Shown: positions 15,439-63,022 of the stretch, piece by piece
Layout: every line of letters starts with the position of its first letter
Numbering within the stretch: the first letter of the stretch is position 1
DNA from: Zygnema cylindricum
Taxonomy: Eukaryota; Streptophyta; Zygnematophyceae; Zygnematales; Zygnemataceae
Length of the DNA stretch: 64,000 bases
Assembly (NCBI GenBank): GCA_037447655.1
Contig: JBBHKE010000580.1
Coordinates: 47,250-111,249, forward strand
Direction: 5' to 3'
The notes under the pieces: generated by a model
Databases searched by the model: none
What the model was told of the DNA's origin: nothing
The model's input: the letters and a program-made list of their open reading frames with translations, nothing else
Translations under genes and position numbers: made by a program

Positions 15439-16432
15439 TGTTGAAATTAATAGGTTTTCTTATGTATTTTCTAGGTTTCTTAATTATTTTCAATTGAAGA
15501 AGGAAAAGCAGAGGCAACCTGCTTCTAACTTCTCTCTCTAGCCCCATACTTGTTGTAGTCACTTGAGGTTAAAGAAGAATCTAGAGCCATGGCTGCCTAT
15601 GCTTCTCCTAGAGTCAGAAGGCAGTCTTTTGTTAAACTTACCAAAAAGGTTAACGGACCCAGGATTTGATCCTGGTACCTACCGTCCGTCCAAATAGCAC
15701 AGCATCGTTACCATGTAGCCTAGCACTTGTGTTGAAGTATATAGGGTACGATAGCTAGTTAAAGATGTGCAAATAGGAAAGTTCATTTAATTGACGAACG
15801 GACCACAATCACATAGACGCAGTTAGATAGAATCACATCGAAAAGTACTGCTTGTATTTTAACGGCTAAAAATTAAGGCTGATATCAATCGGACGGCAGA
15901 GGAAGAAGCCGGCATCGCGGAATGAACGTTTTGGGGGTTTGCGGTAACAGCCACACCGATTGACATGTGGCAACTTGACATCGGATGGCAGCATCTTCGG
16001 GACATACCATGGCGAACCCAGACATGGCAGGCGTCGTCTCCTTGGCCATCTCGTACAATGGCCGTACAGAAAGTACTCCAGGCAAGTACCTTTCTCTATT
16101 GTACACTAAATTGATTGGCTACATACTTCAGTAGTAGAGTGTTAAGAGAGGGGTTCAAGACTTAGAAAATATAGGTAGCAGCCTCTCTCCCAGAGCGCTT
16201 CTGTATAAAGGTCATCTTTGACCATTGATAATTTACAGCTCAAGGGAGCAAATTCAAGGATTCTTTTTGTGGCACACTCAGGGGAGTCAGCTCTACCAAG
16301 GGGTTCAGTTTGGTCAGTCTGTATTTTGTCAGAGTGTCGATAATACTCATACAAAGAATAAGGGATTGAGGTTATTCCAGAGGCTTCTGGTAAGCTACCT
16401 AATCTTAGTACCAATGGAGGTCTCAGAGTTGC
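15439..16432 (+). mobile_element. family-B copia LTR (left copy)
   Basis: Starts TGTTGAAATTAATAGG and ends CTCAGAGTTGCA. Modules in order: ACTTGTTGTAGTCACT, AGCCATGGCTGCCTATG, the antisense tRNA-like module, a G-box-like ACATGTGG, GTACAGAAAGTAC, ATTGGC (reverse CCAAT), CTCTCTCCCAGAG, TATAAA near 16205 and a shortened hairpin. It resembles the right copy at 40217-41188 at very roughly 85%. The sequence after its end lacks a primer binding site, so the 5' interior of B has been lost. Confidence 0.85.
15643..15727 (-). promoter_or_regulatory. antisense tRNA-like module, family B left
   Basis: On the minus strand: an A-box-like start TAGGCTACATGGTAACGACG, B-box-like GGATCAAATCC (15662-15672) and a T5 run (15643-15647) just after the tRNA-like 3' end. 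Confidence 0.6.
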
Positions 16433-17825
16433 AATATACCTTCAAGCTCCACAGTTGTTAGCCCTGCAAGCAACTCTACAGCTTGAGGGGGGGAGAGAGA
16501 CAAGAAGGGAAAAAATTGGCAAATTACATTCAGAGAAAACACTGAACCCAAGAGTTTCCTCAATGGGGGAGAGCAGAGGCTCAGAACAGGGCAGCTAAGA
16601 GGAAGTTGTCAGCAATAGCGTTTTAGCAGCTGAGCAAGGGACAAACCCACAGGTAGAACTGGAATTCGACATCTCCCTTTGGGGTCACCCACCGCAAGCC
16701 TTGGTGGCAGTGGAACCCGGTAAGATGGACTGGACTTTAGGGGAACAGATAGACCCACGACAGAAGGCCCGACTCTCAAAGGTGTTAGAGGAGAACGGGC
16801 AGGTGTTCTCTTGGTGTGACACAGATGTAGGGATCTATAAGGGGACCCCTTTTGCATTGACCTTACCGATGAGACGACGACTGTTTGGCAGAAACAGTAC
16901 CCTATCACCTTCAAGGAGAAGGAGTTCATCACCGCAAAGGTGCAAACTTTGGTGGACGCGGGGTTGGTGCAGGAATGTACAGGGCTACATGGGTTTGCCT
17001 CTTTGACAGTGCTCCCGCCCAAGAAAGACTCGTCCAGGAAAACGGTAGATTTTTGGATGTGTGGGGACTATCGGATGCTCAACGCGGCCACTAACTCTGA
17101 CTGTTATCCCATGCCCACCCCGGAAGAGATCTTCGACTCTCTTGCTCGGGCCAAAATTTACTCGACGTTGGATATGAAAAATGGGTTTCACCAGATTGCA
17201 ATGGAGCCTAGGCACCGAGAGAGGACTGCTTTTAGGGCCGGGTCCACGTTGTATCAATGGCTGTACATGCCATTTGGCCTCAAAAATGCACCCGCCAAAT
17301 TCCAACGATTCATGGACGAGGCTCTCCAGGGAATCGATTGCGCACGGTGTTACATTGACGATGTGATAATTTTCTCCAAGACATTCGAGGAACACTTGGA
17401 GCATATACAGATCGTTCTACAAGCTTTTCAAGGAGCGGGCTTGAAGTGTCACCCGGGGAAGGGCATTTTTGGAGTGCAGAATATCATTTATGTGGGTCAT
17501 GAGGTGACTCGTGGGATAGTGGGTCCCCACATGGTTAAGGTGGCAGCCCTCGACGCCTTTCAACCCCCGCAAGACATTTCTGCTCTTCGCACTTTCCTGG
17601 GACTAGCCAACTATTACCAGAGGTTTATTCCCGAATTCAGTAGCCATGCCCAGCCATTCAATCAATTATTATGAAAGGACCAAGAGTGGCAGTGGGCGGA
17701 ATAACAACAGACTGCTTTTCAATTCCTGAAAGATTCCCTTAAGCAACATCCCGTGCTTCATATGCCCAATCACTAGCGGCCTTTCTTCCTTTATACTGAT
17801 TGGAGCAGGTTCGGATTGGGAGCAG
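16433..17825 (+). pseudogene. gypsy-2 fragment, reverse transcriptase to start of RNase H
   Basis: A third gypsy lineage. After a degraded Gag/protease-side stretch, the polymerase reads VDAGLVQECTG, CGDYRMLNA, YSTLDMKNGFHQIAM, QWLYMPFGLKNAPAKFQ, the intact catalytic box CYIDDVIIFS, HPGKGIFG and FLGLANYYQRFI. It then runs frameshifted into the RNase H start YTDWSRFGLGAV, where a family-C LTR cuts it at 17826. No LTR or primer site of its own remains. Its left edge touches the end of the family-B LTR directly. It may be an older host for the C LTR or a piece captured inside B. Confidence 0.85.
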
Positions 17826-18191
17826 TGAAACTCTGAGACCTCCATTGGCCCTCAGAGTAAGCAGATCCAAAAAGAAGCTTATCTAGATAGTGCCGACTCC
17901 AAGTTGATATAAACCCAAATGACTGACCCCTTGACAATCAGAACCCAAATATAGATTCACCCCTGTGAAATAACACTTTCTGTGTGGTCAGTTCCACCAC
18001 AGAATGCAAAGTTAGAATATGAGATTTGGACACATTCACCCACTTTGACTTTCCCTTAGAAATACCGCCACCCTGGCAGACAAAAACTCTAACCGACTAC
18101 ACCCCTGTGTAGCTTGGACTCCCTTGAGTCCGCAGCAAAAAGAATCACTGAAAATGGTCAAGTAAATTGATAGTTATGGCTGGCCAAAGTT
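17826..18191 (-). mobile_element. family-C LTR, 3' fragment (minus)
   Basis: Begins TGAAACTCTGAGACCTCC, the inverted LTR 3' end, and follows family C through the GGACTCCCTTGAGTCC hairpin. At 18191 it switches to family-E sequence. The switch lies on TGCCACT, present in both families, so a microhomology join is likely. The same C segment recurs at 22048-22280. Confidence 0.8.
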
Positions 18192-18262
18192 TGCCACTGG
18201 CCGGATTTGAACCGGGGTCTGTAGACTGCTAGACAAACCAACGTCTTATCCATTAAGTCACT
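18192..18262 (-). promoter_or_regulatory. antisense tRNA-like module, family E left (truncated)
   Basis: Minus strand: A-box-like TGACTTAATGG, close to the consensus TRGYNNARNGG, and a canonical B-box GGTTCAAATCC (18203-18213). It resembles the tRNA-Arg D-arm style TAATGGATAAG. The acceptor stem does not pair, so it is not a working tRNA. The truncation removed the T4 run found in the right copy. Confidence 0.65.
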
Positions 18263-19088
18263 AACGAAACGATACACGTGCAATGTTTCACGCATATTTA
18301 ACTATTGATTCAAAGAACTAATTCGCAACATCCTAACGAAAACGCACATTAATCAATTCATGCATGGAAGCGAATCGAAGCCGTATAAATACATCTGATC
18401 AGACGACCATTTTTACAACCGCCAGCCACAATAAGCTTTCGGCGTGCTTTGGAGATAGCGTCACGCGGTGCCACGTGGCGCCATATTATTTGACATCGGA
18501 GAAGATGGGAGGAGGAACCATGGCTCCCTATTTGGCAGATGTCACCTTGTAGACCATGTCCTACAATGTTCGTACAATAACTACATCGCCCACCGTACCT
18601 TCTTGTCCTATATAGTGTTCCTCTTGGACTAGGGTTTAGTAGTAGGTAGTCATGAGTAGGCAAACTAATACTTAGTGATATTTCGGTACCTCTCTCTAAG
18701 AGAGCATGTAATTATAAATGTCATTTTTGACCAGCCATAACTTAATGCTTGGGTGAGCAAATTCAATAATTCTTTTTGCTCCGGGCTCAGGGGAGTCCAG
18801 GCAACATAGGGGTGTAGTCGCTCAGAGTCTTTGCGTGCGATGGTGGTACCTATTCTAAGGGAAAGTCAAAGTGGGTGAATGTGTCCAAATCTCATATTCT
18901 AACTTTGCATTCTATGGTGGAAGTGAGCACACAGAAAGTCTTCTTTCACAGGGATGAAGCTCTAATGGGGTTTTGACTGTCAAAGGGTCAGTCATTTGGG
19001 TTGATATCAAGTTAGAGTCGCCACTACCGAGATTAGCTTCTTTTTTAGATATGCGAATTTTGTGGGCAATGGAGCCCATAGAGTTTCA
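18192..19088 (+). mobile_element. family-E LTR, 5'-truncated (left copy)
   Basis: 897 bp, the same length as the matching part of the right copy (21151-22047). As far as I can read, the two are identical for about 820 bp and then differ repeatedly over the last 70. It lacks the first 200 bp present at 20951-21150. It ends TAGAGTTTCA just before the primer site. Contains CCACGTGGC, CTCTCTCTAAGAGAG, an AT-rich TATA region and the GGCTCAGGGGAGTCC hairpin. Confidence 0.85.
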
Positions 19089-19103
19089 GGCTATGGGCCC
19101 ACC
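19089..19103 (+). other. primer binding site, family E (half-tRNA type)
   Basis: GGCTATGGGCCCACC, one mismatch from the complement of the plant initiator tRNA-Met anticodon arm. It includes the ATG from which the Gag frame MGPPSRVP opens. Confidence 0.75.
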
Positions 19104-20950: not shown

Positions 20951-22047
20951 TGTTGAAGTTTATGTATTTTCTAGGTCTGTATTGGAAAAAAAAATAAAGT
21001 GTTGAAAGAGGTGATTAATAGTTCACTTCTATATGTTAGTTAGAATGTAAAGAGAAAGAAAGAGAAAACCAAAGGCACGCCATGGGTGCCGCATCATTTA
21101 GAAGGAGGCAGAATGAATTAGAAGGTATTTTAATAGTTTTAGCAAAATACTGCCACTGGCCGGATTTGAACCGGGGTCTGTAGACTGCTAGACAAACCAA
21201 CGTCTTATCCATTAAGTCACTAACGAAACGATACACGTGCAATGTTTCACGCATATTTAACTATTGATTCAAAGAACTAATTCGCAACATCCTAACGAAA
21301 ACGCACATTAATCAATTCATGCATGGAAGCGAATCGAAGCCGTATAAATACATCTGATCAGACGACCATTTTTACAACCGCCAGCCACAATAAGCTTTCG
21401 GCGTGCTTTGGAGATAGCGTCACGCGGTGCCACGTGGCGCCATATTATTTGACATCGGAGAAGATGGGAGGAGGAACCATGGCTCCCTATTTGGCAGATG
21501 TCACCTTGTAGACCATGTCCTACAATGTTCGTACAATAACTACATCGCCCACCGTACCTTCTTGTCCTATATAGTGTTCCTCTTGGACTAGGGTTTAGTA
21601 GTAGGTAGTCATGAGTAGGCAAACTAATACTTAGTGATATTTCGGTACCTCTCTCTAAGAGAGCATGTAATTATAAATGTCATTTTTGACCAGCCATAAC
21701 TTAATGCTTGGGTGAGCAAATTCAATAATTCTTTTTGCTCCGGGCTCAGGGGAGTCCAGGCAACATAGGGGTGTAGTCGCTCAGAGTCTTTGCGTGCGAT
21801 GGTGGTACCTATTCTAAGGGAAAGTCAAAGTGGGTGAATGTGTCCAAATCTCATATTCTAACTTTGCATTCTATGGTGGAAGTGAGCACACAGAAAGTCT
21901 TCTTTCACAGGGATGAAGCTCTAATGGGGTTTTGACTGTCAAAGGGTCAGTCATTTGGGTTGATATCAAGTTGGAGTCGGCACTACCGAGATTACCTTAT
22001 TTTGTGGAAATGCAAATTTTGTGGGTAATGGAGCCCATAGAGTTTTA
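20951..22047 (+). mobile_element. family-E 3' LTR
   Basis: 1097 bp, starting TGTTGAAGTTTATG after a purine-rich tract (AGTAAATGGAG) and ending ATAGAGTTTTA. The first 200 bp are divergent from other families but keep a GCCATGGGTGCC counterpart of the shared AGCCATGGCTGCC. It runs directly into a truncated minus-strand C LTR at 22048. Confidence 0.85.
21144..21221 (-). promoter_or_regulatory. antisense tRNA-like module, family E right
   Basis: A-box-like TGACTTAATGG, B-box GGTTCAAATCC (21162-21172) and T4 on the minus strand (21144-21147), three bases past the tRNA-like 3' end. This is the best-formed example together with family D. Confidence 0.7.
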
Positions 22048-23080
22048 GAAGTAACACTTTCTGTGCGCTCAGTTCCACCACAGAATGCAAAGTTATAATA
22101 TGAGATTAGGACACATTCACCCACTTTGACTTTCCCTTAGAAATGTAGCTTCCCTCGTAGACAAAAACTTTGACCACCTACACCCTTGTGTAGCCTGGAC
22201 TCTGCTGAGTGCGGAGCAAAAAGAATCACTGAAAATGGTCAAGTAAATTGATAGTTATGACTGGCCAAAGTTTTCCATTTATACAAGGTGCTTTCTAGGA
22301 AAGGCAGCTACCTACCCAAAATTTTATAAATCCTATTCCCCTTCTAAAACTCCATCTTCTGAAGTACGGCACCGATCAAATCACTGTGTCGTACAGTAAA
22401 GTATAGGTGGTGGTGTACTTTCTGTACGGCCATTGTACAACATGCAAAAAATGTCGACACGTGTCATATAGGGATTCGTTCTTGTAATCCCCGGAGATGC
22501 CGCGATCCAATGCGGTTGTTCCACGTGTCAGTTGACGTGGCGTTGACCGGAAACTGCCAAAATCATATTCTGCGATCTCGGCATCATTCTCGGCCGTCCG
22601 ATCAAACCCAAATTCACTCTTAGCCGTTATAAACATTTGAGCGATATTTGTTTCACGTTTGAAACAATTTCGAGATACCTGTTTCGAAATGTTTCGTGCA
22701 CCGTACAATGTCAAGTCTATCTATGTACTAAGTATCTATTTGTTGTTAAACGAATTAATCTACGTGTGACAATTTATATGAATGTTAAACCCTATATTCG
22801 TAACACTAGTCCTAGTCTTAACGGTTAAAACTAACGGCTACGGCGACATAACGGACGGTAGTTACTAGGATCAATTCCTGCGTTCGTTAGGCGCCTTTTG
22901 GTAAATTTACCTAATCCACCCTCTGTATCTTTAGTGAGCTTAGACAGCCATGGCTCTAGCTCCCTATCCAGCTTTCAGTGACTACAACAAGTGTGGGGGC
23001 TTGGAGAGGGGAGTTAGAGGTAGACTGCCTCTGCCTTTTTCTATCCTATTACAGACCTAAAAAAAACACAAATATCAACA
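22048..23080 (-). mobile_element. family-C LTR c (minus), 3'-truncated
   Basis: Minus LTR ending at 23080 with inverted TGTTGATATTTGTG. The LTR 3' end is missing: it starts at an internal AACACTTTCTGTG point, directly after the family-E LTR. Contains TGACACGTGGA-type boxes, GTAC clusters and the shared AGCCATGGCT block. From 22414 to 23080 it matches LTR b (24912-25577) almost base for base. Confidence 0.85.
22818..22899 (+). promoter_or_regulatory. antisense tRNA-like module, family C (LTR c)
   Basis: Plus strand here because the LTR is minus: AACGGCTACGGCGACATAACGG start, B-box-like GGATCAATTCC (22868-22878), T4 at 22896-22899. Confidence 0.55.
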
Positions 23081-24541: not shown

Positions 24542-24551
24542 GCCCATAACC
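24537..24551 (-). other. primer binding site, Gag-protease element
   Basis: GGTTATGGGCCCACC on the minus strand, directly after the LTR end. Complementary to the plant initiator tRNA-Met anticodon arm and containing the Gag ATG. Confidence 0.85.
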
Positions 24552-25577
24552 TGAAATTCTGTGACCTCCATTGGTACACAAAATGTCCAGCTTATATGAA
24601 GCCTCTAGGATAATATTTGCAGTTTTGACTTTGGCAATGAATAAGTGCCACCCTGGCACGCAAAAACTCTGACCGACTACACCCCTGTGTAGCCTGGACT
24701 CCCCTGAGTCTGCAACAAAAAGAATCACTGAATTTGCTCACCCGAGCATTAAGTTATGGCTGTTCAAAGACAGCATATTTATACAGATGGCCTCTGGGAG
24801 AGAGAGGACTTTTCAATATTTTTCTAAGTCCTGAAAAACTCCTAATAGCAATTCTAAACCAATCAAAAACCATTACCCTAATTATCGTACATATAAAGTA
24901 CAGAAGCCGCCGTACTTTCTGTACGGCCATTGTACAACATGCAAAAAATGTCGACACGTGTCATATAGGGATTCGTTCTTGTAATCCCCGGAGATGCCGC
25001 GATCCAATGCGGTTGTTCCACGTGTCAGTTGACGTGGCGTTGACCGGAAACTGCCAAAATCATATTCTGCGATCTCGGCATCATTCTCGGCCGTCCGATC
25101 AAACCCAAATTCACTCTTAGCCGTTATAAACATTTGAGCGATATTTGTTTCACGTTTGAAACAATTTCGAGATACCTGTTTCGAAATGTTTCGTGCACCG
25201 TACAATGTCAAGTCTATCTATGTACTAAGTATCTATTTGTTGTTAAACGAATTAATCTACGTGTGACAATTTATATGAATGTTAAACCCTATATTCGTAA
25301 CACTAGTCCTAGTCTTAACGGTTAAAACTAACGGCTACGGCGACATAACGGACGGTAGTTACTAGGATCAATTCCTGCGTTCGTTAGGCGCCTTTTGGTA
25401 AATTTACCTAATCCACCCTCTGTATCTTTAGTGAGCTTAGACAGCCATGGCTCTAGCTCCCTATCCAGCTTTCAGTGACTACAACAAGTGTGGGGGCTTG
25501 GAGAGGGGAGTTAGAGGTAGACTGCCTCTGCCTTTTTCTATCCTATTACAGACCTAGAAAATACACAAATATCAACA
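24552..25577 (-). mobile_element. chimeric LTR b (families G and C, minus)
   Basis: 1026 bp. From 24552 to about 24911 it matches the family-G solo LTR at 61923-62275 (CTCCATTGGTACACAAAATG, AGTTATGGCTGTTCAAAGAC). From 24912 to 25577 it matches family-C LTR c almost exactly. The switch sits on GTACTTTCTGTACGGCC. It serves as 5' LTR of the Gag-protease interior to its left and 3' LTR of the interior to its right. Confidence 0.85.
25313..25396 (+). promoter_or_regulatory. antisense tRNA-like module, chimeric LTR b
   Basis: Same layout as LTR c: B-box-like GGATCAATTCC at 25365-25375 and T4 at 25393-25396. Confidence 0.55.
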
Positions 25578-27233: not shown

Positions 27234-27237
27234 AACT
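27223..27237 (-). other. primer binding site, minus C element
   Basis: AGTTATGGGCCCACC on the minus strand, one mismatch from the other copies; contains the Gag ATG. Confidence 0.75.
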
Positions 27238-27393: not shown

Positions 27394-27575
27394 TGTTGAT
27401 ATTTGTTTATTTTATAGGTATGTAATAGGATAGAAAAAGGCAGAGGCAGTCTGCCTCTAACTCCCCTCTCCAAGCCCCCACACTTGTTGTAGTCACTGAA
27501 GGTTGGATAGGGAGCTAGAGCCATGGCTGCCTATGCTCTCTAGAGAAGACATAGGGTAAATTAGTAAGACTTACC

Positions 27576-27658
27576 AAAAGGTACTTGACGAACCGAGGAA
27601 TTGATCCTAGTACCTACCGTCCGTCAATCTGACCTTAGCCGGTGACTTTAGCCGTTTA
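27576..27658 (-). promoter_or_regulatory. antisense tRNA-like module, plus C 5' LTR
   Basis: B-box-like GGATCAATTCC (27597-27607) and T4 (27576-27579) on the minus strand, with an AAACGGCTAAAGTCACCGG start. Confidence 0.55.
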
Positions 27659-28559: not shown

Positions 28560-28574
28560 GGTTATGGGCCCACC
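28560..28574 (+). other. primer binding site, plus C element
   Basis: GGTTATGGGCCCACC immediately after the LTR; half-tRNA type, with the Gag ATG inside it. Confidence 0.85.
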
Positions 28575-30417: not shown

Positions 30418-30423
30418 AGGGAG

Positions 30424-31605
30424 TGTTGATATTTGTGTATTTTATAGGTCTGTAATAGGATAGAAAAAGGCAGAGGCAGTCTGCCTCTAACTCCCCTCTC
30501 CAAGCCCCCACACTTGTTGTAGTCACTGAAGGCTGGATAGGGAGCTAGAGCCATGGCTGCCTATGCTCTCTAGAGAAGACAGGGGGTAAATTAGTAAGAC
30601 TTACCAAAAGGTACTTGACGAACCGAGGAATTGATCCTGGTACCTACCGTTAGTCAATTTGACCTTAGCTGGTGACTTTGGGCGTTTAGAATAGAGCTAG
30701 TGTTACAACGTATGGGGTTTGATAAATATTTAAATAGTTACACATAGACTAGTTCATTTAACTGGAAATATATACGTATTGCATAGATACAGTTATGATA
30801 GTACGGAGTACGGATTTCTTTATTGAAACGGATACCGCGCTTTTGGTTCGACCGCGAAACAAATACCGCGCGCCTATTTTCAACGACGAGAAATGTAGCC
30901 GGATTTGATCGGACGGCCGCGATAGGCGCCGCGATCACGGGATATGTACTTTTGGCGGTTTACGGTCATTCCCACATAGGATGACACGTGGCACGTCAAT
31001 ATTGGATTGCGGCGCCACCGGAGATTACGGCAACAAATAGATATATAACATGTGTCGACATTTGAGCCATATCGTACGATTGTCGTACAGAAAGTACACC
31101 GGCACCTGTACTTATCTGTACTGTACAATAAAGTGGTTGGTGCCGTACGTCAGTAGATAGGGTCTTAGAGTGAGAATAGGACTTAGAATATTTTCACTAG
31201 GTAGTCGCCTCTCCCAGAGAGCATCTTATATAAATGGCTAACTTTGGGAAACCATAACTATCAATTCACTTGACCATTTTCAGTGATTCTTTTTGCTGCG
31301 GACTCAAGGGAGTCCACGCTACACAAGGGTGTAGTCAATCAGAGTTTTTGTCTGCTAGGGTGGCGGTATTTCTAAAGGAAAGTCAAAGTGGGTGAATGTG
31401 TCCAAATCTCATATTCTAACTTTGCATTCTGTGGTGGAACTAACCACACAGAAAGTGTTATTTCACAGGGGTGAATCTATATTTAGGTTCTGATTGTCAA
31501 GGGGTCAGTCATTTGGGTTTATATCAACTAGGAGTCGGCACTATCTAGATAGGCTTATTTTTGGATCTGCTTACTCTGAGGGCCAATGGAGGTCTCAGAG
31601 TTTCA
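30424..31605 (+). mobile_element. family-C 3' LTR (plus-strand element)
   Basis: 1182 bp, preceded by the polypurine tract AAGAAAATAAAGGGAG and starting TGTTGATATTTGTG. It ends CAGAGTTTCA at 31605 and is followed by the other half of the minus C LTR. Close similarity to the 5' copy makes this one of the younger insertions. Confidence 0.9.
30606..30688 (-). promoter_or_regulatory. antisense tRNA-like module, plus C 3' LTR
   Basis: B-box-like GGATCAATTCC (30627-30637), T4 at 30606-30609. Confidence 0.55.
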
Positions 31606-32626
31606 TTCTTTGTGCTCAGTTCCACCACAGAATGCAAAGTTACATTATAAGATTAGGACACATTCACCCACTTTGACTTTCCCTTAGAAATGCAGCCTCT
31701 CTGGTTGACAAAAACTCTGACCGATTTCACCTCGTTTTACGTGGACTCCCCTAAGTCCGCAACAAAAAGAATCACTGAAAATGGTCAAATAAATTGATAG
31801 TTATAATTGGCTATAGATTGCCACTTATACAAGGTGCTCTCTGGGAGAGACAGCTACCTACCCAAAATTTTCTAAGTCCTATTCCCCCTGTAAAACTCCA
31901 TCTTTTGAAGTACGGTACCAATCAAATCATCGTGTCTTACACAAAAGTACAAGTGCCGGTGTACTTTTTGTACGGCCATTGTACAACATGGACAAAATGT
32001 CGACACGTGTCATATAAGGATTCGTTCTTGTAATCCTCGGAGATGCCGCGATCCAATGTAGTTGTTCCACGTGTCAGTTGATGTGGAGGTGACTGGAAAT
32101 TGCCAAAATCGTATTCCGCGATCTTTGCATCATTGTCGGCCGTTTGATCAAACCGGAATTCACTCTTAGCTGTAGTAAACATTTGAGCAATACTTGTTTC
32201 ACGTTTGAAACAATTTCGAGATACCTGTTTCCAAATGTTCCGTGCGTCGTACAATGTCAACTGTATCTATGCACTAAGTATCTAATTGTCGTCAAACGAA
32301 TTAATCTACGTGTGACAATTTATATGAATGTCAAACCCTATATTCGTAACACTAGTCCTAGACTTAACGGTTAGAACTAACGGCTACGGCGACATAACAG
32401 ACGGTAGGTACTAGGATCAATTCCTCGGTTCGTCAGGTGCCTTTTGGTAAATCTACCTAATCCACCCCCTGTGTCTCTAGTGAGCTTAGGCAGCCATGGC
32501 TCTAGCTCCCTATCCAGCCTTCAGTGACTACAACAAGTGTGGGGGCTTGGAGAGGGGAGTTAGAGGCAGAGTGCCTCTGCGTTTTTCTAACCTATTACAA
32601 ACCTAGAAAATACACAAATATCAACA
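31606..32626 (-). mobile_element. family-C LTR a (minus), second part
   Basis: Completes the minus LTR begun at 27238. Junctions share TTTGTG, compatible with a slightly eroded target duplication. It ends with inverted TGTTGATATTTGTG at 32626. Carries GACACGTGTCAT, CCACGTGTCA and GTAC clusters. Confidence 0.85.
32365..32445 (+). promoter_or_regulatory. antisense tRNA-like module, LTR a
   Basis: ACGGCTACGGCGACATAAC start, GGATCAATTCC (32414-32424), T4 at 32442-32445. Confidence 0.55.
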
Positions 32627-32947: not shown

Positions 32948-34001
32948 TGTAGAAATTAATGGTCCATTTTTAGTATTTTCTAAGTCTAAATAGAAATATA
33001 GAAAGAAGCCGAGGCAGTCTACCTCTAACTTCTCTCTCCAACTCTCAAACTTGTCGCAGTCACTGAGAAATTGGAGAGGGAGCTAAACCATGGCTACCTA
33101 AGCTATCCAGAGGTTTACGGGAAATATATATTAGTAAGGGGTTTATTTACTAAAAGGTATGTGCCGGCCACAGGATTTGATCCTGATACCTACCGGCCGG
33201 CAGACAGACAGTAGCCGGTAGCCTTAGCCGTTAAGTCTAGAACTAGTGTTACGTACAATTTGGTTTGATAATTAACTAAACATTAATACGTAGGATAATT
33301 CATTTAACTGTAATTGTTTACGGGATACATAGATCCGGTAATATAAAAGTACGGATTACGGTACGGATAAGAAATCAATACGACGCATTTATTTTTTTAG
33401 CGAAACGAATACTGCGCATTTATTTATTACGGCTACGATTAAATGTGAATTAAATCGGACGGCCGGAATTAGCGCCGAGATCGCGGAAGAAGATTTCGGC
33501 GTTTTGTGGTCATTGCCACATCGGATGACACGTGGCGAAATTACATTGGATCGTGGTATCTTCGGAGATTCCGGCACCGAATCCGGATATGACATGTGTC
33601 GACATTTAGGCCATATCATACAGTGTCCGTACATAAAGTACAGCAGCAGCTGTTCTTTTGCGTACAAAACTGTAATCTGATTGGTTTCGTACATCAACAG
33701 GTAGAGTTTGTGAGAGAGATAGGACTTAGGAAAATTAGGAGATAGGACCCTCTCTTCCAGAAAGCTTCGGTACAAAAGGTCAACTTTGACCCTCCATAAC
33801 TTACTGCTCAGGGGAGCAAATTCAGAGATTCTTTTTGCTATCGACTTAGGGGAGTCTTGTCTTCACAGGGGTGCTGGTGGTCAGAGTTTTTGTTTGCCAG
33901 GGTGGTAGTTGTTTTTGCTGAAACACAAAGGGGTCAGGATTATCCTAGAGGCTTCTTGAAAGCTGTCCACTCTGAGGACTTATGGATGTCTCAGAGTTTC
34001 A
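32948..34001 (+). mobile_element. family-A copia A1, 5' LTR
   Basis: 1054 bp, TGTAGAAATTAATGG to CAGAGTTTCA. Modules as in the other families, with TGACACGTGGCG, a GTAC cluster, GATTGG, and CTCTCTTCCAGAAAG. The TATA position reads GTACAAAA, so the core promoter is weak or lost. The hairpin region reads GACTTAGGGGAGTC. Confidence 0.9.
33152..33236 (-). promoter_or_regulatory. antisense tRNA-like module, A1 5' LTR
   Basis: Start TTAACGGCTAAGGCTACCGG, B-box-like GGATCAAATCC (33173-33183) within a CAGGA...TCCTG T-arm, T4 at 33152-33155. Confidence 0.6.
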
Positions 34002-34016
34002 GGTTATGGGCCCACC
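34002..34016 (+). other. primer binding site, A1
   Basis: GGTTATGGGCCCACC abutting the LTR; Gag ATG at 34006. Confidence 0.85.
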
Positions 34017-40216: not shown

Positions 40217-41188
40217 TGTTGAAATTAAAAGGTTTTTTTATTTTTTAATGAGGAAGGAAAAGCAAAGGCAGCCTGCTTCTAACTTCTATCTCTAGCCCCA
40301 TACTTGTCATAGTCACTGGAGGCTGAAGAACAAGCTTAAGCCATGGCTGCCTATGCTTTTCCTAGAGTCAAAAGGTAGTCCTTTGTTAAACTTATCAAAA
40401 AGGTTAGCTGACCCAGGATTTGATCCTGGTACCTACCGTCCGTCTTTTTAGACAAGCGTCGTTACCATGTAGCCTAGCACCTGTGTCGAGGTATATAGGG
40501 TACGATAGCTACTTAAAGATGTACAAATAGGAAAGCTCATTTAACTGATGAACGGACCATAATCACATAGATATAGTTAGATAGAATCACATCTAAAAGT
40601 ACTGCTTGTATTATAACAGCTATAAATTAAGGTCGATATCAATCAGACGACGGAGAAAGAAGCCGGCATCGCGGAATAGACGAATTTGTGGTTTGCGGCC
40701 ACAACCACGTCAGGTGACACGTGGCAACATTACATTGGATATCTACATCTCCGAGACATACCATGGCGAACCCAGAAATGGCAAGCGTCACCTTCTTGGA
40801 CATGTCGTACACTGGCCGTACAGAAAGTACTCTGGGCGAAGTACCTTTCGGTACTGTACACTTAATTGATTGGCTTTGTACTTTAGTAATAGAGGGATAA
40901 GAGAGGGGTTCAGGTCTTGGAAAATATTTGGTAGCAGCCTCTCTCCGAGAGTGCTTTTATATAAAAGGTCATCTTTGATCATTGATAATTTTTTTACTGC
41001 TCAAGGGAGCAAATTCAAGGATTCTTTTTGTGGTAGACTTAGGGGAGTCAGCTCTTCCAAGGGGTGCAATTTGGTCAGTCTGTATTCTGTCAGGGTGTCA
41101 ACAATATTCAAACATAGCTTAAACAACTGAGGTTATCCTAGAGGCTTCTAGCAAGTTGCCCACTCTGAGTACCAATGGAGGTATCAGA
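40217..41188 (+). mobile_element. family-B copia 3' LTR
   Basis: Starts TGTTGAAATTAAAAGG; it ends near GGTATCAGA with the last few bases and the target duplication eroded. Contains GGTGACACGTGGCAAC, GTAC cluster, ATTGGC, CTCTCTCCGAGAG, TATAAAA near 40960. To its right gypsy-1 integrase coding (minus) resumes. Confidence 0.85.
40397..40480 (-). promoter_or_regulatory. antisense tRNA-like module, family B right
   Basis: TAGGCTACATGGTAACGACG start, B-box-like GGATCAAATCC (40416-40426), T5 at 40397-40401. Confidence 0.6.
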
Positions 41189-45339: not shown

Positions 45340-45942
45340 CTTTTCAACTCGTCCGTACATTCCTCGGACTTCTCGCGACCGAATGTCATCCTTCCACGCG
45401 GTGCCAAGTCATGCCACGTCCATAAAAGCCAAAGTGACCATTCCGCGATCTCGGCGATGATATGTGCCGTTAGATTAAATCCGACATTAAATGTTGACCG
45501 TCTAAACAAATAACCGATTCATTTGTTTCGTGCGAAATGACGTCCGCACTAAACTTTAACAAGTTATATGTTCCTTCGTTCAATTTCCAATTAATTGATT
45601 TCAGTAACATACAATAGTTTAAATAAATATTGAACCCTATATCTCCTAACAGACTTCTACGACAAACTGGTTAGAACTAACGGCTACGCCGCGCTCTGCT
45701 AGTTGAAGGTTCGAGTCCTACCGGACTCAACCTTTTATTGAGAGTGACTTAAGTCACTCTTTAGTTGAGCTTGTTGAGCTAGGGCAGCCATGGCTCAACC
45801 ACCCTCTCTATCCCTCAGTGACTACAACAAGTATGGTGGGTAAAGAGAGGAGGTGGAGGCAGGTTGTCCGCTTTTTTCTTTTCCTTTATGTACTAAATTA
45901 TTAAGACCTTGAAAATACCACAAAAATCTAATAATTTCAACA
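45340..45942 (-). mobile_element. family-D solo LTR, right part (5' portion)
   Basis: Continues the D LTR after gypsy-1: CGCGGTGCCAAGTCATGCCACGTCC area, ATTCCGCGATCTCGGCG, the tRNA-like module, AGCCATGGCTCAACCACC, TCAGTGACTACAACAAGT and inverted TGTTGAAATTATTAG at 45942. Followed by AACGA. Together with 12129-12536 it makes about 1.0 kb. Confidence 0.8.
45668..45736 (+). promoter_or_regulatory. antisense tRNA-like module, family D
   Basis: Perfect canonical B-box GGTTCGAGTCC (45708-45718), tRNA-like 3' end CCGGACTCAACC, and T4 at 45733-45736 immediately after it. The A-box region (AACTAACGGCTACGCC) is degenerate. Orientation is opposite to the LTR. Confidence 0.65.
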
Positions 45943-49359: not shown

Positions 49360-49361
49360 TA

Positions 49362-49375
49362 TGGTATCAAAGCTT
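49362..49375 (+). other. primer binding site, gypsy-3
   Basis: TGGTATCAAAGCTT, one mismatch over 12 nt from the complement of the plant initiator tRNA-Met 3' end (TGGTATCAGAGC). Confidence 0.8.
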
Positions 49376-52498: not shown

Positions 52499-53553
52499 TG
52501 TAGAAATTAATGGTCCATTTTTAGTTTTTTCTAGGTCCAAATAGAAATATAGAAAGAAGCCGAGGCAGTCTACCTCTAACTTCTCTCTCCAACTCTCAAA
52601 CTTGTCGCAGTCACTGAGAAATTCGAGAGGGAGCTAGAGCCATGGCTACCTAGGCTATCCACAGGTTTACGAGAAATATATATTAGTAAGGGGTATATTT
52701 ACAAAAAGGTATGTGCCGGCTACAGGATTTGATCCTGGTACCTACCGGCCGGCAGACTTCCGGTAGCCGGTAGCCTTAGCCGTTAAGTCTGAGACTAGTG
52801 TTACATACTATAGGGTTTGATAACTAATTATACATTATCAAGTAGGGTAATTCATTTAACTGTAACTTTTTACGGCATACATAGGTCCATTAATGTAGAA
52901 GTACGGATTACGGTACGGATAAGAAACCAATACCGCGCATTTAACTCTTTAATGAAACGAATATCGCGTATGTATTTATTACGGATACGATTAAATGTGA
53001 ATCAAATCGGTCGTCCGAAATTAACGCCGAGATCGCGGAAGAAGATTTCGGTGGTTTGTGGTCATCGCCACATCCGATGACACGTGTCGGAATGACATTG
53101 GATCACGGTATCTCCGAGGATAAAGGGAGCGAATCCGGACATACCACATGTCGACATTTAGGCCATGTCGTACAATGTCCGTACAGAAAGTACACCGCCA
53201 ACTGTACTTTTGTGCACGGAACTGTAATGTGATTGGCTCCGTACATCAGCAGATAGAGTCTGTGAGAGAGATAAAACTTAGAAAAATTAGGAGATAGGAC
53301 CCTCTCTCCCAAAGAGCTTTTGTACAAAATGTCAACTTTGACCCTCCATAACTTATTGCTCATGGGAGCAAATTCAGAGATTCTTTTTGCTATCGAATCA
53401 AGGGAGTCTTGTCTTCACAAGGGTGCAGGTGGTCAGAGTTTTAGTCTGTCAAGGTGGCAGTTGTTTTTGCAGAAACACAAAGGGGTCACAATTATCCTAG
53501 ATGCTTCTTGAAAGCTGTCCACTCTGAGGACTTATCGAGGTCTCAGAGTTTCA
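52499..53553 (+). mobile_element. family-A copia A2, 5' LTR
   Basis: 1055 bp, TGTAGAAATTAATGG to CAGAGTTTCA; partner of 57804-58856 (1053 bp). GATGACACGTGTCGG, GTAC cluster, TGATTGG, CTCTCTCCCAAAGAG; the TATA position reads TGTACAAAA. Confidence 0.92.
52703..52792 (-). promoter_or_regulatory. antisense tRNA-like module, A2 5' LTR
   Basis: B-box-like GGATCAAATCC (52725-52735), T5 at 52703-52707, start TTAACGGCTAAGGCTACCGG. Confidence 0.6.
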
Positions 53554-53568
53554 GGTTATGGGCCCACC
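53554..53568 (+). other. primer binding site, A2
   Basis: GGTTATGGGCCCACC abutting the LTR; the Gag frame begins at its ATG (53558). Confidence 0.85.
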
Positions 53569-57790: not shown

Positions 57791-57803
57791 AAAATAAGGG
57801 GAG
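57791..57803 (+). other. polypurine tract, A2
   Basis: AAAATAAGGGGAG directly before the 3' LTR. Confidence 0.8.
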
Positions 57804-58856
57804 TGTAGATATTAATGGTCCATTTTTAGTATTTTCTAGGTCTAAATAGAAATATAGAAAGATGCCGAGGCAGTCTACCTCTAACTTCTCTCCACAACTC
57901 TGAAACTTGTCGCAGTCACTGAGAAATTCGAGAGGGAGCTAGAGCCATGACTACCTAGGCTATCCAGAGGTTTACGGGAAATATATATTAGTAAGGGGTT
58001 TATTTACTAAAAGGTATGTGCCGGCTACAGGATTTGATCCTGGTACCTACCGGCCGGTAGACTTCCAGTAGCCGGTAGCCTTAGCCGTTAAGTCTGAGAC
58101 TAGTGTTACATACTATAGGGTTTGATAATTAATTATACATTATCAAGTAGGGTTATCATTTAACTGTAACTTTTTACAGCATACATAGGTCCATTAATGT
58201 AAAAGTACGGATTACGGTACAGATAAGAAACCAATACCGCGCATTTAACTCTTTAATGAAACGAATATCGCGCATGTATTTATTACAGCTACGATTAAAT
58301 GTGAATTAAATCGGTCGGCCGGAATAAGCGCCGAGAACGCGGAAGAGGATTTCGGCGGTTTGTGGTCATCGCCACATCGGATGACACGTGTCGGAATGAC
58401 ATTCGATCACGGTATCTCCGAGGATTAAGGGAGCGAATCCGGACATACCACGTGTCGACATTTAGGCCATGTCGTACAATGTCCGTACAGAAAGTACACC
58501 GCCAGCTGTACTTTTGTGTACGGAACTGTAATCTGATTAGCTCCGTACATTAGTAAATAGAGTATGTGAGAGAGATAGGACTTAGAAAAATTAGGAGATA
58601 GGACCCTCTCTCCCAGAGAGCTTCTGTACAAAAGGTCAACTTTGACCCTCCATAACTTACTACTCAGGGGAGCAAATTCAGAGATTCTTTTTGCTATCGA
58701 CTTAGGGGAGTCTTGCCTTCACAGGGTGAAGTTTGTCAGAGTTTTTGTTTGCCAGGGTGGCAGTTGTTCTTGCTGAAACACAAAGGGGTCAGAGTTATCC
58801 TAGAGGCTTCTTGGAAGCTGTCCACTCTGAGGACTTATAGAGGTCTCAGAGTTTTA
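57804..58856 (+). mobile_element. family-A copia A2, 3' LTR
   Basis: 1053 bp, TGTAGATATTAATGG to CAGAGTTTTA, followed by CTGAT. Retains CTCTCTCCCAGAGAG and GACTTAGGGGAGTC. Confidence 0.92.
58009..58093 (-). promoter_or_regulatory. antisense tRNA-like module, A2 3' LTR
   Basis: B-box-like GGATCAAATCC (58030-58040), T4 at 58009-58012, start TTAACGGCTAAGGCTACCGG. Confidence 0.6.
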
Positions 58857-58861
58857 CTGAT
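58857..58861. repeat. target-site duplication CTGAT, right (element A2)
   Basis: Matches 52494-52498; gypsy-3 coding resumes beyond it. Confidence 0.92.
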
Positions 58862-59310
58862 CAGTAGAGAACATTCAAGGAACTAAAAGGGAAGTTGACC
58901 TCTACCCCTACACCGGTGTATCCGACCCTGTTGGGCAATTTGAAGTTTTGATCACTACTGATGCATTTGATAAAGGTCTAGGTGTAGTCATAAGTCAAAA
59001 GTCGGGAAACTCTTTCATCCCATTGCTTTTGAGTCCAGAAAATTAAATGATGCTGAAAAAAACTATCCAGCAAAGGAAAAAGAATTACTTGCAATTGTAC
59101 ATGCATTCGTGAAATGGCGTTTTTATTTGCATAATAAAGAATTTAAATTTCACTGTGATAATAAGGTACTCTCTTTTTCACAAAGATTAAGTGATCCACA
59201 GATTAGGACTGGCAAACCAGTTAGGTGGATGCAGAAATTAGCAAATTTCAAACTTAATGTCAAAGATATTCTTGGGAAGACGAATGTGGTAGCAAATCCT
59301 TTAAGTTGAT
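58862..59310 (+). pseudogene. gypsy-3 RNase H
   Basis: LITTDAFDKGLGVVIS with the first Asp; then, after a frameshift, AEKNYPAKEKELLAIVHAF and KWRFYLHNKEFKFHCDN (59109 onwards) with VRWMQKLANFKLNV. It ends VVANPLS, the usual VADALS region. Confidence 0.85.
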
Positions 59311-60642
59311 ATTTTGAAATAATTCTTATGGTCCAAGATAAATTATTTTTAGATGCTTTTGGAAATGGTTATGATAAAGATACTTATTTTGTTGCTATTT
59401 GAAAAAATATTTCATGAGGGAATTCTGACCTATTGAATAGAGGCATGTCAAAAACTTTACACTAGAAGATGGTTTACTGTATTTGCAAATTGGGGATAGA
59501 TTATGCATTCCTGAAGTGGGAGACTTAAGAAAACAAATTTTGCGAGAAGCTCATGAGCATTTGGGACATCTAGGTCGAGATATAACTCTTAGTTGATTGC
59601 AAAAGAGATTGTTTTGGCTCACGATGGCAAAAGAGGTGTCGAAACACATAGAAAGTTGTTTCCCTTGCCAATAGAGTAAAAACCAAAAACCAAAAACCTA
59701 GAGGTCTCTTAAAACCTTTCGATATCTGCGAAGAGCGTGGTAATTTGTCACTATGGATTTTTTTGTCAGGTTGACTAGATTATCTATAGAAATGACAGTA
59801 TCATGGTCGTAGTCGCTAGGTTCAGTAACATGGCAATATTTATCCTTTGCATAACTACTCATTCAATTGTCGATATTGCAAAGTTATATTTTGACAACGT
59901 GGTCAAACATCATAGAGTCCCTTTATCTATAGTTAGTGATAGGGATTCTAAATTTACGTCTGCATTTTGGAAAGAGTTACACCAAAAATTTAGCCACAGC
60001 ATTGAAAATGAGTACCTAGACAGTAAAGATGTACCTTACACTAGAGGAAGTGCTTAGGAGGAAGTGCTTAGGACGGTTTGCAGTGGCGTTTTAAACACAT
60101 GGGAATCTAAACTACCATTAAAGGAATTTGCATACAATTCATGTAAACATGCTTGTACAGGATTCTCACCATTTGAATTTATAAACGGATACCAACCTAG
60201 GGAAGCATTAGACTTTATAATTAGGGTCACTCAAGAGAATAGAGGTTCTGGAACAGAGTTTTGGGAATACGTTCAAACAGTTTGGAAAACTGTCCGGGAT
60301 GTATTAGTGGAGCAACAAAAGAGGCAAGAATTAAATGCTAACCGCAAACGGGGTGATTGGGTAGTACGCACATGTGACAAGGTCTTGCTTTCTACAACTC
60401 ATTACAAGTGCAAGATCGAGGGACGATCGGATCATACGGGGAAATTTGCTCCTAAGTACATTGGACCATTTACTGTAATCGAGATGATATCGTCAGTTAT
60501 TGCCAAATTGGACTTTCCGCCTTCAACAAATATTCATCCAGTAATACACATCAGCCAATTGAAACCAGCGAATCTTCGACCGACTGAAGGAGGATTGGAA
60601 TTGGATCCCTCAATAATTATAGAACCTGAGGTCCACAGATAG
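59311..60642 (+). pseudogene. gypsy-3 integrase
   Basis: Zinc finger HEHLGHLGRD and ESCFPCQ (59500-59680), core with VVVARFSNMAIF, FDNVVKHHRVP and SIVSDRDSKFTSAFW (59803-60057). After a stop it continues with LKEFAYNSCKHACTGFSPFEF, KFAPKYIGPFTVIE and HPVIHISQLKPA (60064-60642). The first catalytic Asp region is damaged. Confidence 0.87.
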
Positions 60643-60801
60643 GTAATAGATTGGGTTGGTCAATGGTTCAAGGTTGGAAATACTATATTCTAGCAAGTGC
60701 ACTATCTAGGAGGTCTAGAAGATGAATTGACTTTAGAAGATAAAAGTTTTGAGTTTTTACAAAGGTGTTGGAGGGAAAATAATATAGAAGTCCCGTCTTG
60801 A
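60643..60801 (+). pseudogene. gypsy-3 chromodomain-like tail
   Basis: VIDWVGQWFKVGN, a stop, QVHYLGGLEDELTLEDKSFEF and LQRCWREN follow the integrase. The spacing and GQ-F/K-G, Y-V-W-G, E/W pattern match degenerate chromodomains of plant gypsy elements. Confidence 0.6.
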
Positions 60802-60835
60802 GAATGAAAGAGTTTAACTGAGGTCAGTTAAAAAT

Positions 60836-60848
60836 AAAGAGGGGATGA
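60836..60848 (+). other. polypurine tract, gypsy-3
   Basis: AAGAGGGGATGA-type purine run before TGTAAC of the 3' LTR. Confidence 0.6.
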
Positions 60849-60969
60849 TGTAACTAACAGCAGATCGAACTTGTTTGTAAAGGGGTATTTAGGTGTTATC
60901 AATATAGAGTACTAAATTTGGTGGACGTTTGCGAAAGAATCGCGCGATTTAGAGTCCTATTTTAAAAGA
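60849..60969 (+). mobile_element. gypsy-3 3' LTR, first 121 bp
   Basis: Matches 48392-48514 (CAGATCGAACTTG, AGTACTAAATTTGGTGGACG). Cut between A and T by the Helitron; the remainder is not in the window. Confidence 0.88.
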
Positions 60970-60999
60970 CTAGTAAATCAATGCCCGTTACACGGGCAT
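60970..60999 (-). terminator. Helitron 3' terminal hairpin and CTAG
   Basis: Stem-loop ATGCCCGT-GTA-ACGGGCAT (minus strand), spacer TGATTTA, then CTAG. This is the replication-termination signal style of Helitrons. Confidence 0.85.
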
Positions 61000-61347
61000 A
61001 GACCGATTTGAATGTTATCACTTAATTTTTTGCCTCAAATAACAAAGTGTATCACCATCGTACATTTAAGATTTTAATGATTAATTTAACAGTATGTTTT
61101 ATGTCTACACAATCTCTTTACACCTTTTCTTGTTTATATCAACCATAGGGTGATTTGTTCGTAAACATAAATTCATTTTTAACAATTTCACATTGCAAGA
61201 TTGCCCCATTTATATTGTGTTTTTTTTTAGGTATATAAGCCTATATAGCCTACTTTTGAACATGGAAAACCTACTTGTGAATAAACCAAAGGAAATTATA
61301 TCCATCATTCATGTCTCATAGGACGTTAAAGGGTAAGACCCTTACGT

Positions 61348-61922
61348 TTATGTTTCATTATCAAGCATTGGTTCTTCAATCAACACTTTTACATTAGCTC
61401 GAGATGTGACTCGTGACATTGCGACATATAGTTGTCAATGTGCGAACACTGACTGTGGGAGATACAAACCCAAGTGGTGAATTGATTGTCCTTGAGCTTC
61501 GTTGATTATCATTGCAAATCCTACTTGCACTGAAAACTGGCGACGTTTGATCTGGAAAGGTAATGCTTTTTCTTTGCTAATCATTGGAATACGCGAAATG
61601 AATATATTGGTGATTTTAGCAACTCTTGTGAGTATCTTAGCGTGAATGCAGTTTCTGGTAAGACGCACCACCCGGTGTTTGATTCTATTGCAAAGTCTCT
61701 TTTCACCGTTGATATTACGCAACAAAATTATTGGTGTTCCTACCTTTAGCTTGAGCTTGTGCGGTGGTATGCCACTGATTGTCAAAGAATTGAGAAACTC
61801 TTATGGCAACAACAGTTGTTGGTCAGGGTTCTCGCTCTCCACAGTGTCGATTGATAGATATTCCTGCTCTATTTCTGTTATTTTCATCATGACCAAGTTG
61901 TTGACGTTGTTTACATCAACAT
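61348..61922 (-). pseudogene. Helitron helicase (Pif1-like), C-terminal part
   Basis: Minus strand: VDVNNVNNLVMM, a frame through EFLNSLTISGIPPHKLKLKV (one stop before EFLN), GTPIILLRNINGEKRLCN, IFISRIPMI, LPFQIKRRQFSVQVGFAMI, NEAQGQSIHHLGLYLPQSVF, then a TGA in place of a Gly codon and QLYVAMSRVTSRANVKVL. The final IEEPMLDNET ends at a stop near 61348. These are the last helicase motifs of Helitron RepHel proteins. Confidence 0.88.
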
Positions 61923-63022
61923 TGTGACCTCCATTGGTCCACAAAATGTCCAGCTTATATGAAGCCTATAGGATAATATTTGCAGCTTTGACTTTGGCAA
62001 TGAATAAGTGCCACCCTGACACGCAAAAACTCTGACCGACTACACCCCTGTGTAGCGTGGACTCCCTTGAGTCCGCAGCAAAAAGAATCAATGAATTTTC
62101 TCACCTGAGCATTAAGTTATGGTTGTTCAAAGACAGCATATTTGTACAGATGGCCTCTAGGAGAGAGGACTTTTTCAAATTTTGCCTAAGTCCTCAAAAA
62201 CTCCTAATAGCTACTCTAAACCAATCAACGTGAAGTATCCTAATTAGTGTACATATAAAGTACAGCAGCCGCCGTACTTTATAAACGGATATATTCGGCA
62301 CCATTCTTGGTCTGCCACGTGGCAAAAATAGGTCAATAGCATTCTGTCCTTTTTCTCTTCCGACATCCTATAGGATGATGCCACGTGTCATTTCCTTCCA
62401 TTTCGCCGAACTTCTCCCAGATAGTCGTTCCGGCATACCGGCACTCACGCGTGTCGTCCGTTCTTTTCACGGTGATCAATTTCAGCCGTTCGATTTGACG
62501 GCGCGCCGAATAAATGTTGACCGTTGAATTTCACCGGTCAAATTTCCGTGTTGACCGTTGAATTTCGACGGTCAACATTCCGTGTTGACCGTTTAAATTT
62601 TCTTCTTGCTTCGCGAGTCGTCGATCGCGACATTTAATTTCGTCCGTCGAAATCAAATGTCTGTTTCATTTATTTCGTGCGGTACTGCATTTCGTGCGGT
62701 ACCACACGTTCTATGTTTCGTTTCATTCCGTAAGTCGCTAAAAGGAAAATGTCGCCATGTATATTTTATATAGTTATTAAACGTACTCTATGCAACGAAT
62801 CATCAAGACGTAACGGATAAAGCGGACGCCTATTCCGTACGACCCATGTCAAGAGGTTTCAGGATCAAATCCTGGCTGTGTCAATAAAACTTTTGCATGA
62901 GCTTTGTCTTCTGTATATCTTCTCATCTGTCTAAGGTAGCCATGGCTGCCTGTCAATTCTCAATGACTACGATAAGTATGAAAACTGCAAGACTAAACAA
63001 AAAAGTAGAATACAAAATATCA
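61923..63022 (-). mobile_element. family-G solo LTR inside the Helitron
   Basis: Minus LTR from TGTGACCTCCATTGG (3' side, a few terminal bases eroded) to inverted TGATATTTTGTATTC. It carries the GGACTCCCTTGAGTCC hairpin, CCAATCAACG, CTGCCACGTGGC, GCCACGTGTCAT, the tRNA-like module and AGCCATGGCTGCC. Helitron helicase coding is split by it: DRAVLSI on the right side, NVDVNN on the left. AATG occurs at both junctions. Confidence 0.8.
62805..62894 (+). promoter_or_regulatory. antisense tRNA-like module, family G
   Basis: GTAACGGATAAAGCGGACGCC start, B-box-like GGATCAAATCC (62862-62872), tRNA-like end CCTGGCTGTGTCA and T4 at 62891-62894. Confidence 0.6.

Follow-up and report, generated by a model that had tools for sequence, protein, structure and literature searches.

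Related long terminal repeat (LTR) retrotransposons fill a 64,000-nucleotide stretch of the Zygnema cylindricum genome (contig JBBHKE010000580.1, positions 47,250 to 111,249; hereafter the window), and the unique 3′ region (U3) of their LTRs contains a conserved block that runs antisense to the element, is predicted to form a hairpin RNA and is likely a compact RNA polymerase III (Pol III) gene of about 250 nt, a reading to which we assign a probability of roughly one half. Sequence comparison gives good support for a selected RNA encoded by the block, and Pol III is the likely polymerase. The block comprises a tRNA-type B-box, a T run shortly after it, a hairpin that encloses the box (H2) and a larger hairpin downstream (H1). 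An earlier note on this DNA had described the box and T run as an antisense tRNA-like unit; what it saw was real but was underestimated, as the box is one part of a conserved RNA block on the antisense strand.

The window is made up of densely packed, nested LTR retrotransposons within a 353-Mb eukaryotic assembly, and by Pfam, several elements have copia gag, integrase and RVT_2 domains, while others have domains of Ty3 type. The B-box consensus GGWTCRANTCC matched the window 15 times, compared to 0.47 matches expected from shuffles. Fourteen of these matches fell in LTR 5′ parts, one in every such part (14/14), and all were antisense to the element, so that the antisense box reported earlier for fourteen copies was recovered in full; the fifteenth match, at 3858, lies outside these LTRs. 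The LTR 5′ parts were located with a hidden Markov model (HMM) made from those same copies, which beyond them matched only two 24-base pieces, at an E-value of 2.5. A T4-T5 run begins 14-18 nt past the B-box in all 13 LTRs tested, while the fourteenth copy (18203) has TTT only and, as previously described, is truncated exactly there, its 99%-identity block ending at 18192. At 18192-18196, two inverted LTR pieces join with an overlap of ~4 bp, which coincides with the 3′ limit of the tRNA-like part in this E copy. A second T run was present at +150..167 in 10 of 13 window LTRs, near or after H1 in six of the seven families. The individual units are listed below, with T-run offsets given relative to the B-box.

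15504..15672, minus strand: antisense unit of LTR A15662; B-box 15662-15672, T5 at +14, H1 15492-15608, T4 at +154.
40258..40426, minus strand: antisense unit of LTR A40416; B-box 40416-40426, T5 at +14, H1 40246-40362, T4 at +154 and also at +42 and +185.
27434..27607, minus strand: antisense unit of LTR B27597; B-box 27597-27607, T4 at +17, H1 27424-27542, T5 at +158.
30464..30637, minus strand: antisense unit of LTR B30627; B-box 30627-30637, T4 at +17, H1 30454-30572, T5 at +158.
22868..23040, plus strand: antisense unit of LTR C22868; B-box 22868-22878, T4 at +17, H1 22932-23050, T5 at +157.
25365..25537, plus strand: antisense unit of LTR C25365; B-box 25365-25375, T4 at +17, H1 25429-25547, T5 at +157.
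32414..32586, plus strand: antisense unit of LTR C32414; B-box 32414-32424, T4 at +17, H1 32478-32596, T5 at +157.
32992..33183, minus strand: antisense unit of LTR F33173; B-box 33173-33183, T4 at +17, H1 32992-33109, no T4 after H1.
52543..52735, minus strand: antisense unit of LTR F52725; B-box 52725-52735, T5 at +17, H1 52543-52661, no T4 after H1.
57848..58040, minus strand: antisense unit of LTR F58030; B-box 58030-58040, T4 at +17, H1 57848-57966, no T4 after H1.
62862..63027, plus strand: antisense unit of LTR G62862; B-box 62862-62872, T4 at +18, weak H1 at 62928-63032 (24.6 bits), T5 at +150.
45708..45877, plus strand: antisense unit of LTR D45708, which lies next to internal domains of Ty3 type; B-box 45708-45718, T4 at +14, H1 45772-45889, T6 at +153.
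20986..21172, minus strand: antisense unit of LTR E21162; B-box 21162-21172, T4 at +14 and +93, T9 at +167, no H1.
18192..18213, minus strand: truncated E copy; B-box 18203-18213, 99%-identity block ending at 18192, no T4 directly after the B-box.

The copia LTRs are about 1.0-1.2 kb long, as measured in a test that used a B-box word derived from the data. In families A, B, C and F the alignment covers the greater part of the LTR (about 67-80% identity), and in G, E and D only parts of it (up to 89%), which indicates shared descent and means that the agreement between families is partly due to descent. The families named in the earlier note are therefore related, and six independent LTR families were rejected. 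In A, B and C, a sense TATA box was read by eye from the alignment at around LTR position 790; since the unit sits near position 206, roughly 580 bp upstream, it lies in U3. The same region contains a conserved, G-box-like CACGTG word at LTR position ~554, upstream of the sense TATA box. Directly 3′ of the LTR lies the copia primer-binding site (PBS), which is complementary to the anticodon region of initiator tRNA, and the host initiator tRNA genes contain the matching sequence. This resembles the half-tRNA priming described for Drosophila copia and Ty5.

28560..28574, plus strand: primer-binding site after the 5′ LTR; others at 34002 (plus), 53554 (plus) and 24551 (minus).

A ranking of inter-family conservation, intended to tell constraint from descent, placed the B-box 7th or 5th of 1019 LTR windows (seven or six copies compared, respectively). 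The T run ranked 174th or 49th of 1021 and the D-loop 150th or 177th. Sampling was then extended to the whole assembly, where GGATCAAATCC occurs 6050 times compared to 125 occurrences of the reversed word. Of 40 GGATCAAATCC sites taken among the first 100 matches listed (the box-sampled set), 39 sit in related LTRs. A second set was chosen independently of the B-box, using the exact LTR/PBS junction, which is found 2805 times genome-wide (reversed control, 4); 40 copies were taken among the first 100 junctions listed (the PBS-anchored set), and all 40 loci gave an LTR match. The antisense B-box was present exactly in 16 of these copies and with at most one mismatch in 32, with 0 and 1 for the sense control, and T4 followed the box in 31 of the 32 box-bearing copies, as a T run does after 13 of the 14 window boxes. 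Across the 40 copies, identity in the B-box window was 0.861 against a mean of 0.703 (rank 9 of 352), and the T run ranked 6 of 359. Among the 15 distant copies, which are mostly E-like, the commonest box word differs by one letter from GGWTCRANTCC. In 20 random 10-kb tiles, the B-box was found within one mismatch in 7 of 12 LTR matches. T4 was present at +10..22 in 36 of the 39 box-sampled LTRs (background 0.082) and at +23..139 in only one, though 54% of 120-nt stretches contain T4.

Among 11-base windows, conservation in the alignment of 40 copies peaks at a CCATGG palindrome block (LTR position ~129-140; antisense +79..+89 from the box), which lies in the lower stem of H1 and is among the top two in the window copies.

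H1, a hairpin of ~100 nt, follows the B-box and H2 on their 3′ side on the antisense strand, and with it the conserved unit exceeds the segment of 65-80 bp first proposed. The models of H1 and H2, like the HMM, were all derived from window copies. In the H1 alignment, which included 11 of the 14 window LTRs (G and both E excluded), 93.5% of cells were paired compared to at most 54% when the structure was slid along the alignment; none of 500 shuffles reached three of the five measures used, while the other two were reached by 12 and 314. Antisense folds had energies of −42 to −58 kcal/mol and sense folds of −31 to −47, with the antisense lower in 11/11 copies, and the whole-region consensus z-score was −11.7 for the antisense and −3.6 for the sense strand. 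The sense strand is therefore not free of structure in the window set. Including G and one E (13 copies) gave a weaker consensus fold (−10.7 antisense and −5.9 sense, values that are not z-scores).

The H1 model matched the antisense strand in 37 of the 40 box-sampled loci (34 strong); after dropping the three weak matches, with three loci having no match, 34 genomic copies other than those of the window remained. These copies, found by the box word, excised with the H1 model and aligned with MAFFT without structural information, gave an antisense z-score of −12.3 and 19 pairs, 8 of which showed compensatory changes (50 cells), with 93.5% of cells paired. Conversely, the sense strand of the same copies produced a z-score of +0.3, three pairs and no consensus fold, and the antisense energy was lower than the sense energy in 32 of 34. 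In the PBS-anchored set the model matched the antisense strand in 28 of 40 loci (five clipped by the region edge, one partial). A coarse scan found no other LTR window with an energy as low as that of H1. A G-to-A mutation bias was rejected as the only cause of the strand asymmetry, given 151 A-G to 120 C-T differences in four copy pairs; this mild A-G excess may contribute to it.

H2 spans 44 nt and encloses the B-box. It combines an outer stem of 8 bp, a bulge of 8 nt and a T-arm-like stem, and the 3′ side of the latter passes straight into the outer stem, like the T stem and acceptor stem of a tRNA. Ten copies, all of them members of A, B, C or F, matched the model over its entire length, for example:

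27584..27627, minus strand: H2 of LTR B27597; 8-bp outer stem, 8-nt bulge, 5-bp T-arm-like stem.

In the alignment of these ten of the 14 window LTRs, 85.5% of cells pair compared to at most 47% when slid, and in 500 shuffles neither the pairing nor the number of changed cells nor the covariation score was reached; changed pairs and pair types, by contrast, were unexceptional in number (133 and 235 of the 500 shuffles reached them). Extended to 13 distinct rows of all 14 LTRs, pairing was 77.3% against at most 50% when slid. Of 55,803 8-bp stems in the LTR alignment, the outer stem alone attains its pairing and compensatory cells jointly, whereas taken singly 28 other stems pair as well or better and 34 have as many changed cells. 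In 39 genomic copies, the copy's own arms formed 5.49 of 8 pairs compared to 4.74 for exchanged arms (0 of 2000), with at least 6 of 8 pairs in only 21 of 39. G, D and E are without the H2 stem in this register.

The likeness to a tRNA gene is partial. A D-loop-like GG upstream of the box was present in 35 of 39 sampled LTRs and had an identity of 0.95 in the 40 PBS-anchored copies, though its 6-mer ranks only 44 of 357; MYB-type AACGG sites were rejected as the cause of this conservation, as they match some families, not A or E. ARAGORN found no tRNA in the window or in the LTRs of 43 loci, and Rfam gave no tRNA-family match to the window or to the unit sequences scanned, so a true tRNA was rejected. 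The only tRNAs that ARAGORN reported among the 43 loci form a cluster of three tRNA-Gln(CTG) genes (L052:4371-6256). The Rfam scan of the whole window identified no known RNA family, including microRNA (miRNA) precursors; for one B copy scanned alone, the best precursor family was MIR5185 at 23.3 bits against a cut-off of 101.7, and this candidate was rejected.

Several observations weigh against an antisense Pol III hairpin gene. Concerning the promoter, an A-box-like start had been proposed, but matches to the A-box consensus do not exceed chance in 9 of 13 window LTRs (60-76% of LTR positions score as high; in the other four the share is 1.6% for B27597, 12% for C25365, 16% for C22868 and 24% for E), leaving only the GG conserved, and at least 7 of 8 A-box positions match in only 12 of 39 PBS-anchored copies. 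Concerning termination, T4 at +17 would halt Pol III before H1 where four Ts suffice, the F copies of the window have no T4 after H1, and T4 at +140..175 was found in only 17 of 39 box-sampled LTRs (background 0.207). The weak A-box and the first T run are the main doubts about Pol III, and H1 could instead be made by RNA polymerase II (Pol II). With regard to conservation, among the 25 closer PBS-anchored LTRs, in which mean identity is already 0.81, the B-box ranks 55 of 347 and the T run 75 of 354; the refuting condition set in the earlier note, a box and T run no more conserved than the LTR around them, is thus answered across the families, while in the closer group neither is exceptional.

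The strand of the hairpin is also less clear in some comparisons. The sense strand of the window copies is 93.3% paired at H1 (slid, at most 52%), with pairing reached by 3 and covariation by 14 of 500 shuffles, and 21 of the 40 box-sampled loci give a weaker sense match to the H1 model too. F33173 folds equally well from either strand, the T-arm of H2 can also fold from both, and a wobble test on 17 pairs predicted from both strands was neutral (G-U 4, A-C 4). In the coarse scan, other LTR windows reached z-scores of −6.5 (antisense) and −5.2 (sense) compared to −6.7 for H1. Finally, there are E-type LTRs with box and T run but without H1. Such LTRs include 20953-21273 of the window and low-scoring PBS-anchored loci (L085, L089, L101), which have the box (often ending in CT), the GG and the T run; they could represent an ancestral state or a loss. 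Weighed together, constraint on a Pol III-like antisense unit is supported by the box-independent sampling, whereas the A-box proved weak, the unit is no tRNA, its families share descent and its hairpin had gone unnoticed.

In a Pol III hairpin gene of this kind, TFIIIC would bind the B-box, and Pol III would start upstream of the GG, read through or partially stop at the first T run and end at the second. The product could be passed to a Dicer-type enzyme, like a TMER (a tRNA-miRNA-encoded RNA) or a pre-miRNA of bovine leukaemia virus, or be kept as a stable RNA. Since it would be antisense to U3 at the 3′ end of the genomic RNA, the likeliest target is the element's own RNA, and such targeting might restrain copy number. 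With the hairpin on the antisense strand, its G-U pairs would become A-C mismatches in the sense RNA, which may spare the genomic RNA from cutting. More tentatively, we suggest that gag-pol LTR retrotransposons might run a second, opposite-strand hairpin gene driven by a tRNA promoter, with a G-U-tuned, antisense-only fold that spares the genomic RNA and a product that acts in trans against or for the element. If true, this would be a new route by which a retrotransposon makes regulatory RNA without a cleavable hairpin in its own genome, it could bring thousands of Pol III/TFIIIC sites into the host genome, and it would connect Pol III promoters with small RNAs and copy-number control in a way that experiments can probe.

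Known LTRs with Pol III promoters (Cassandra, Helenus) are described as, or expected to be, transcribing the element itself. Helenus (TRIMp3) elements carry tRNA-derived A- and B-box sequence in their LTRs, the boxes being conserved mostly without tRNA function; they are short, non-autonomous terminal-repeat retrotransposons in miniature (TRIMs) of 311-1263 bp, and the tRNA-derived sequence is read as their own promoter (PMC10886601, Kojima 2024). The same text argues that autonomous partners need Pol II and that extensive LTR sequence shared with TRIMp3 is improbable for them; the sense TATA box observed here fits the Pol II part of that argument. Both systems have a tRNA-type B-box in the LTR, accompanied here by a conserved GG and an A-box consensus near chance, and some fungal Helenus families prime from the anticodon loop of initiator tRNA, like the copia elements here. 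Unlike Helenus, the elements here have LTRs of about 1.0-1.2 kb and internal gag, reverse transcriptase (RT) and integrase domains and are thus not short TRIMs, and the unit runs antisense to the element and has an added hairpin. Helenus is the nearest known LTR element, but its size, lack of autonomy and promoter orientation set it apart from these LTRs; neither "antisense" nor "opposite" appears in the main text of PMC10886601. Cassandra, previously invoked as the precedent, does have a Pol III promoter in its LTR, derived from 5S rRNA in a non-autonomous TRIM and transcribing the element itself (PMC10886601). This feature is common to both, source and direction differ, and the Helenus TRIMs are closer. 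No description of an antisense Pol III unit in an LTR was found in the full-text literature searched, a search largely at title level with most subscription journals outside it.

Two viral systems offer parallels for the hairpin. The TMER units of murine gammaherpesvirus 68 end in a T run. They consist of a tRNA-like element followed by hairpins, are transcribed by Pol III and measure 200-250 nt (PMC4838037). The block described here is similar in order and size, with a tRNA-like box (a B-box and a weak A-box) that precedes, in the same orientation, a hairpin under selection. Unlike the TMERs, which are known to be transcribed and have two hairpins after a predicted tRNA-like element, it has one main hairpin, is carried by an LTR and is a prediction. 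The Pol III units of bovine leukaemia virus (BLV) lie on the viral RNA strand. BLV is a retrovirus with compact Pol III hairpin genes, in which mutation of the A and B boxes lowers pre-miRNA levels (PMC4267658), and hairpins in genomic RNA are argued to risk its cleavage (PMC3911700), so that an antisense gene would be expected to avoid cutting. In both cases a reverse-transcribing element has compact hairpin units, with terminators of T4-6 in BLV (PMC4267658, PMC3911700). The BLV B-box, in contrast, is placed downstream of hairpin and terminator, whereas here it lies upstream of H1 and antisense.

The best-surviving alternative, which we nevertheless consider rather improbable, is that the antisense strand does yield a selected hairpin RNA, but as part of a Pol II transcript, the box being the T-loop-like tip of H2 and the T runs incidental. 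The near-chance A-box, the position of H1 past the first T4 run and the covarying stem of H2, which a promoter box would not need, are consistent with this. However, T4 after 31 of 32 boxes, followed by T4 in only 1 of 39 box-sampled LTRs over the next 117 nt, resembles Pol III termination, and E-type copies without H1 keep box, GG and T run.

Another possibility is that the box is a landing site for TFIIIC that insulates or opens LTR chromatin with no RNA made, as at extra-TFIIIC sites. A strong B-box with a weak A-box, and the location in U3 well upstream of the sense TATA box, would suit such a site. It leaves the compensatory changes in H1 and H2 and the conserved T run unexplained, which makes it quite unlikely; an RNA product is the better reading because the hairpin is present.

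An old tRNA-derived short interspersed nuclear element (SINE) or tRNA gene, inserted antisense into an ancestral LTR and decaying neutrally, would account for the D-loop-like GG, T-loop and T run, all of them features of tRNA genes. This explanation, already raised in the earlier note, was rejected as very doubtful, since neutral decay would not yield the ranks of box and T run across 40 copies or the compensatory changes behind the genomic H1 z-score, and no free-standing copy was seen in the 200 kb of tiles, a small sample of 353 Mb, where 9 of 9 antisense H1 matches overlap LTRs. A tRNA-gene or SINE origin as such is compatible with a Pol III hairpin gene.

Least probable of all is that the sense U3 pairs with the primer as a second PBS segment for the T arm of initiator tRNA, modelled on the bipartite PBS of Ty3, in which a T-arm complement lies in U3 and both T and D arms are needed (PMC5371799, PMC4974528): the host initiator T arm matches the antisense motif at 15 of 17 positions in A, 13-14 in F and G and 12-13 in B and C, and this tRNA is also the one whose anticodon region fits the copia primer site, but D and E reach only 10-11 of 17, the E primer site is one letter off the others, no D-arm match lies near the unit, H1 and the T run are left unexplained, and a half-tRNA primer would presumably need no T arm. 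With only the T arm matching, and well in some families only, this was rejected as the main explanation.

Further observations concern the surrounding elements. RT scans of viral and bacterial contigs and a gag protein search led nowhere, and a pattern search of viral contigs gave one match. A GC-rich inverted repeat at 7183-7286, beside a copia RT fragment, gives low H1 model scores on its two strands (20.6 and 18.1 bits). The D LTR (45942-44793, minus strand) shares patches of 72-80% identity with the copia LTRs over its first ~480 bp, and its last 482 bp are 91% identical to another stretch of the window (12537-13018). It is followed by the primer-site-like word TGGTATTGGAGC, a gag-like open reading frame and Ty3-type domains, and may be a chimeric copia/gypsy LTR in which the antisense unit is present.

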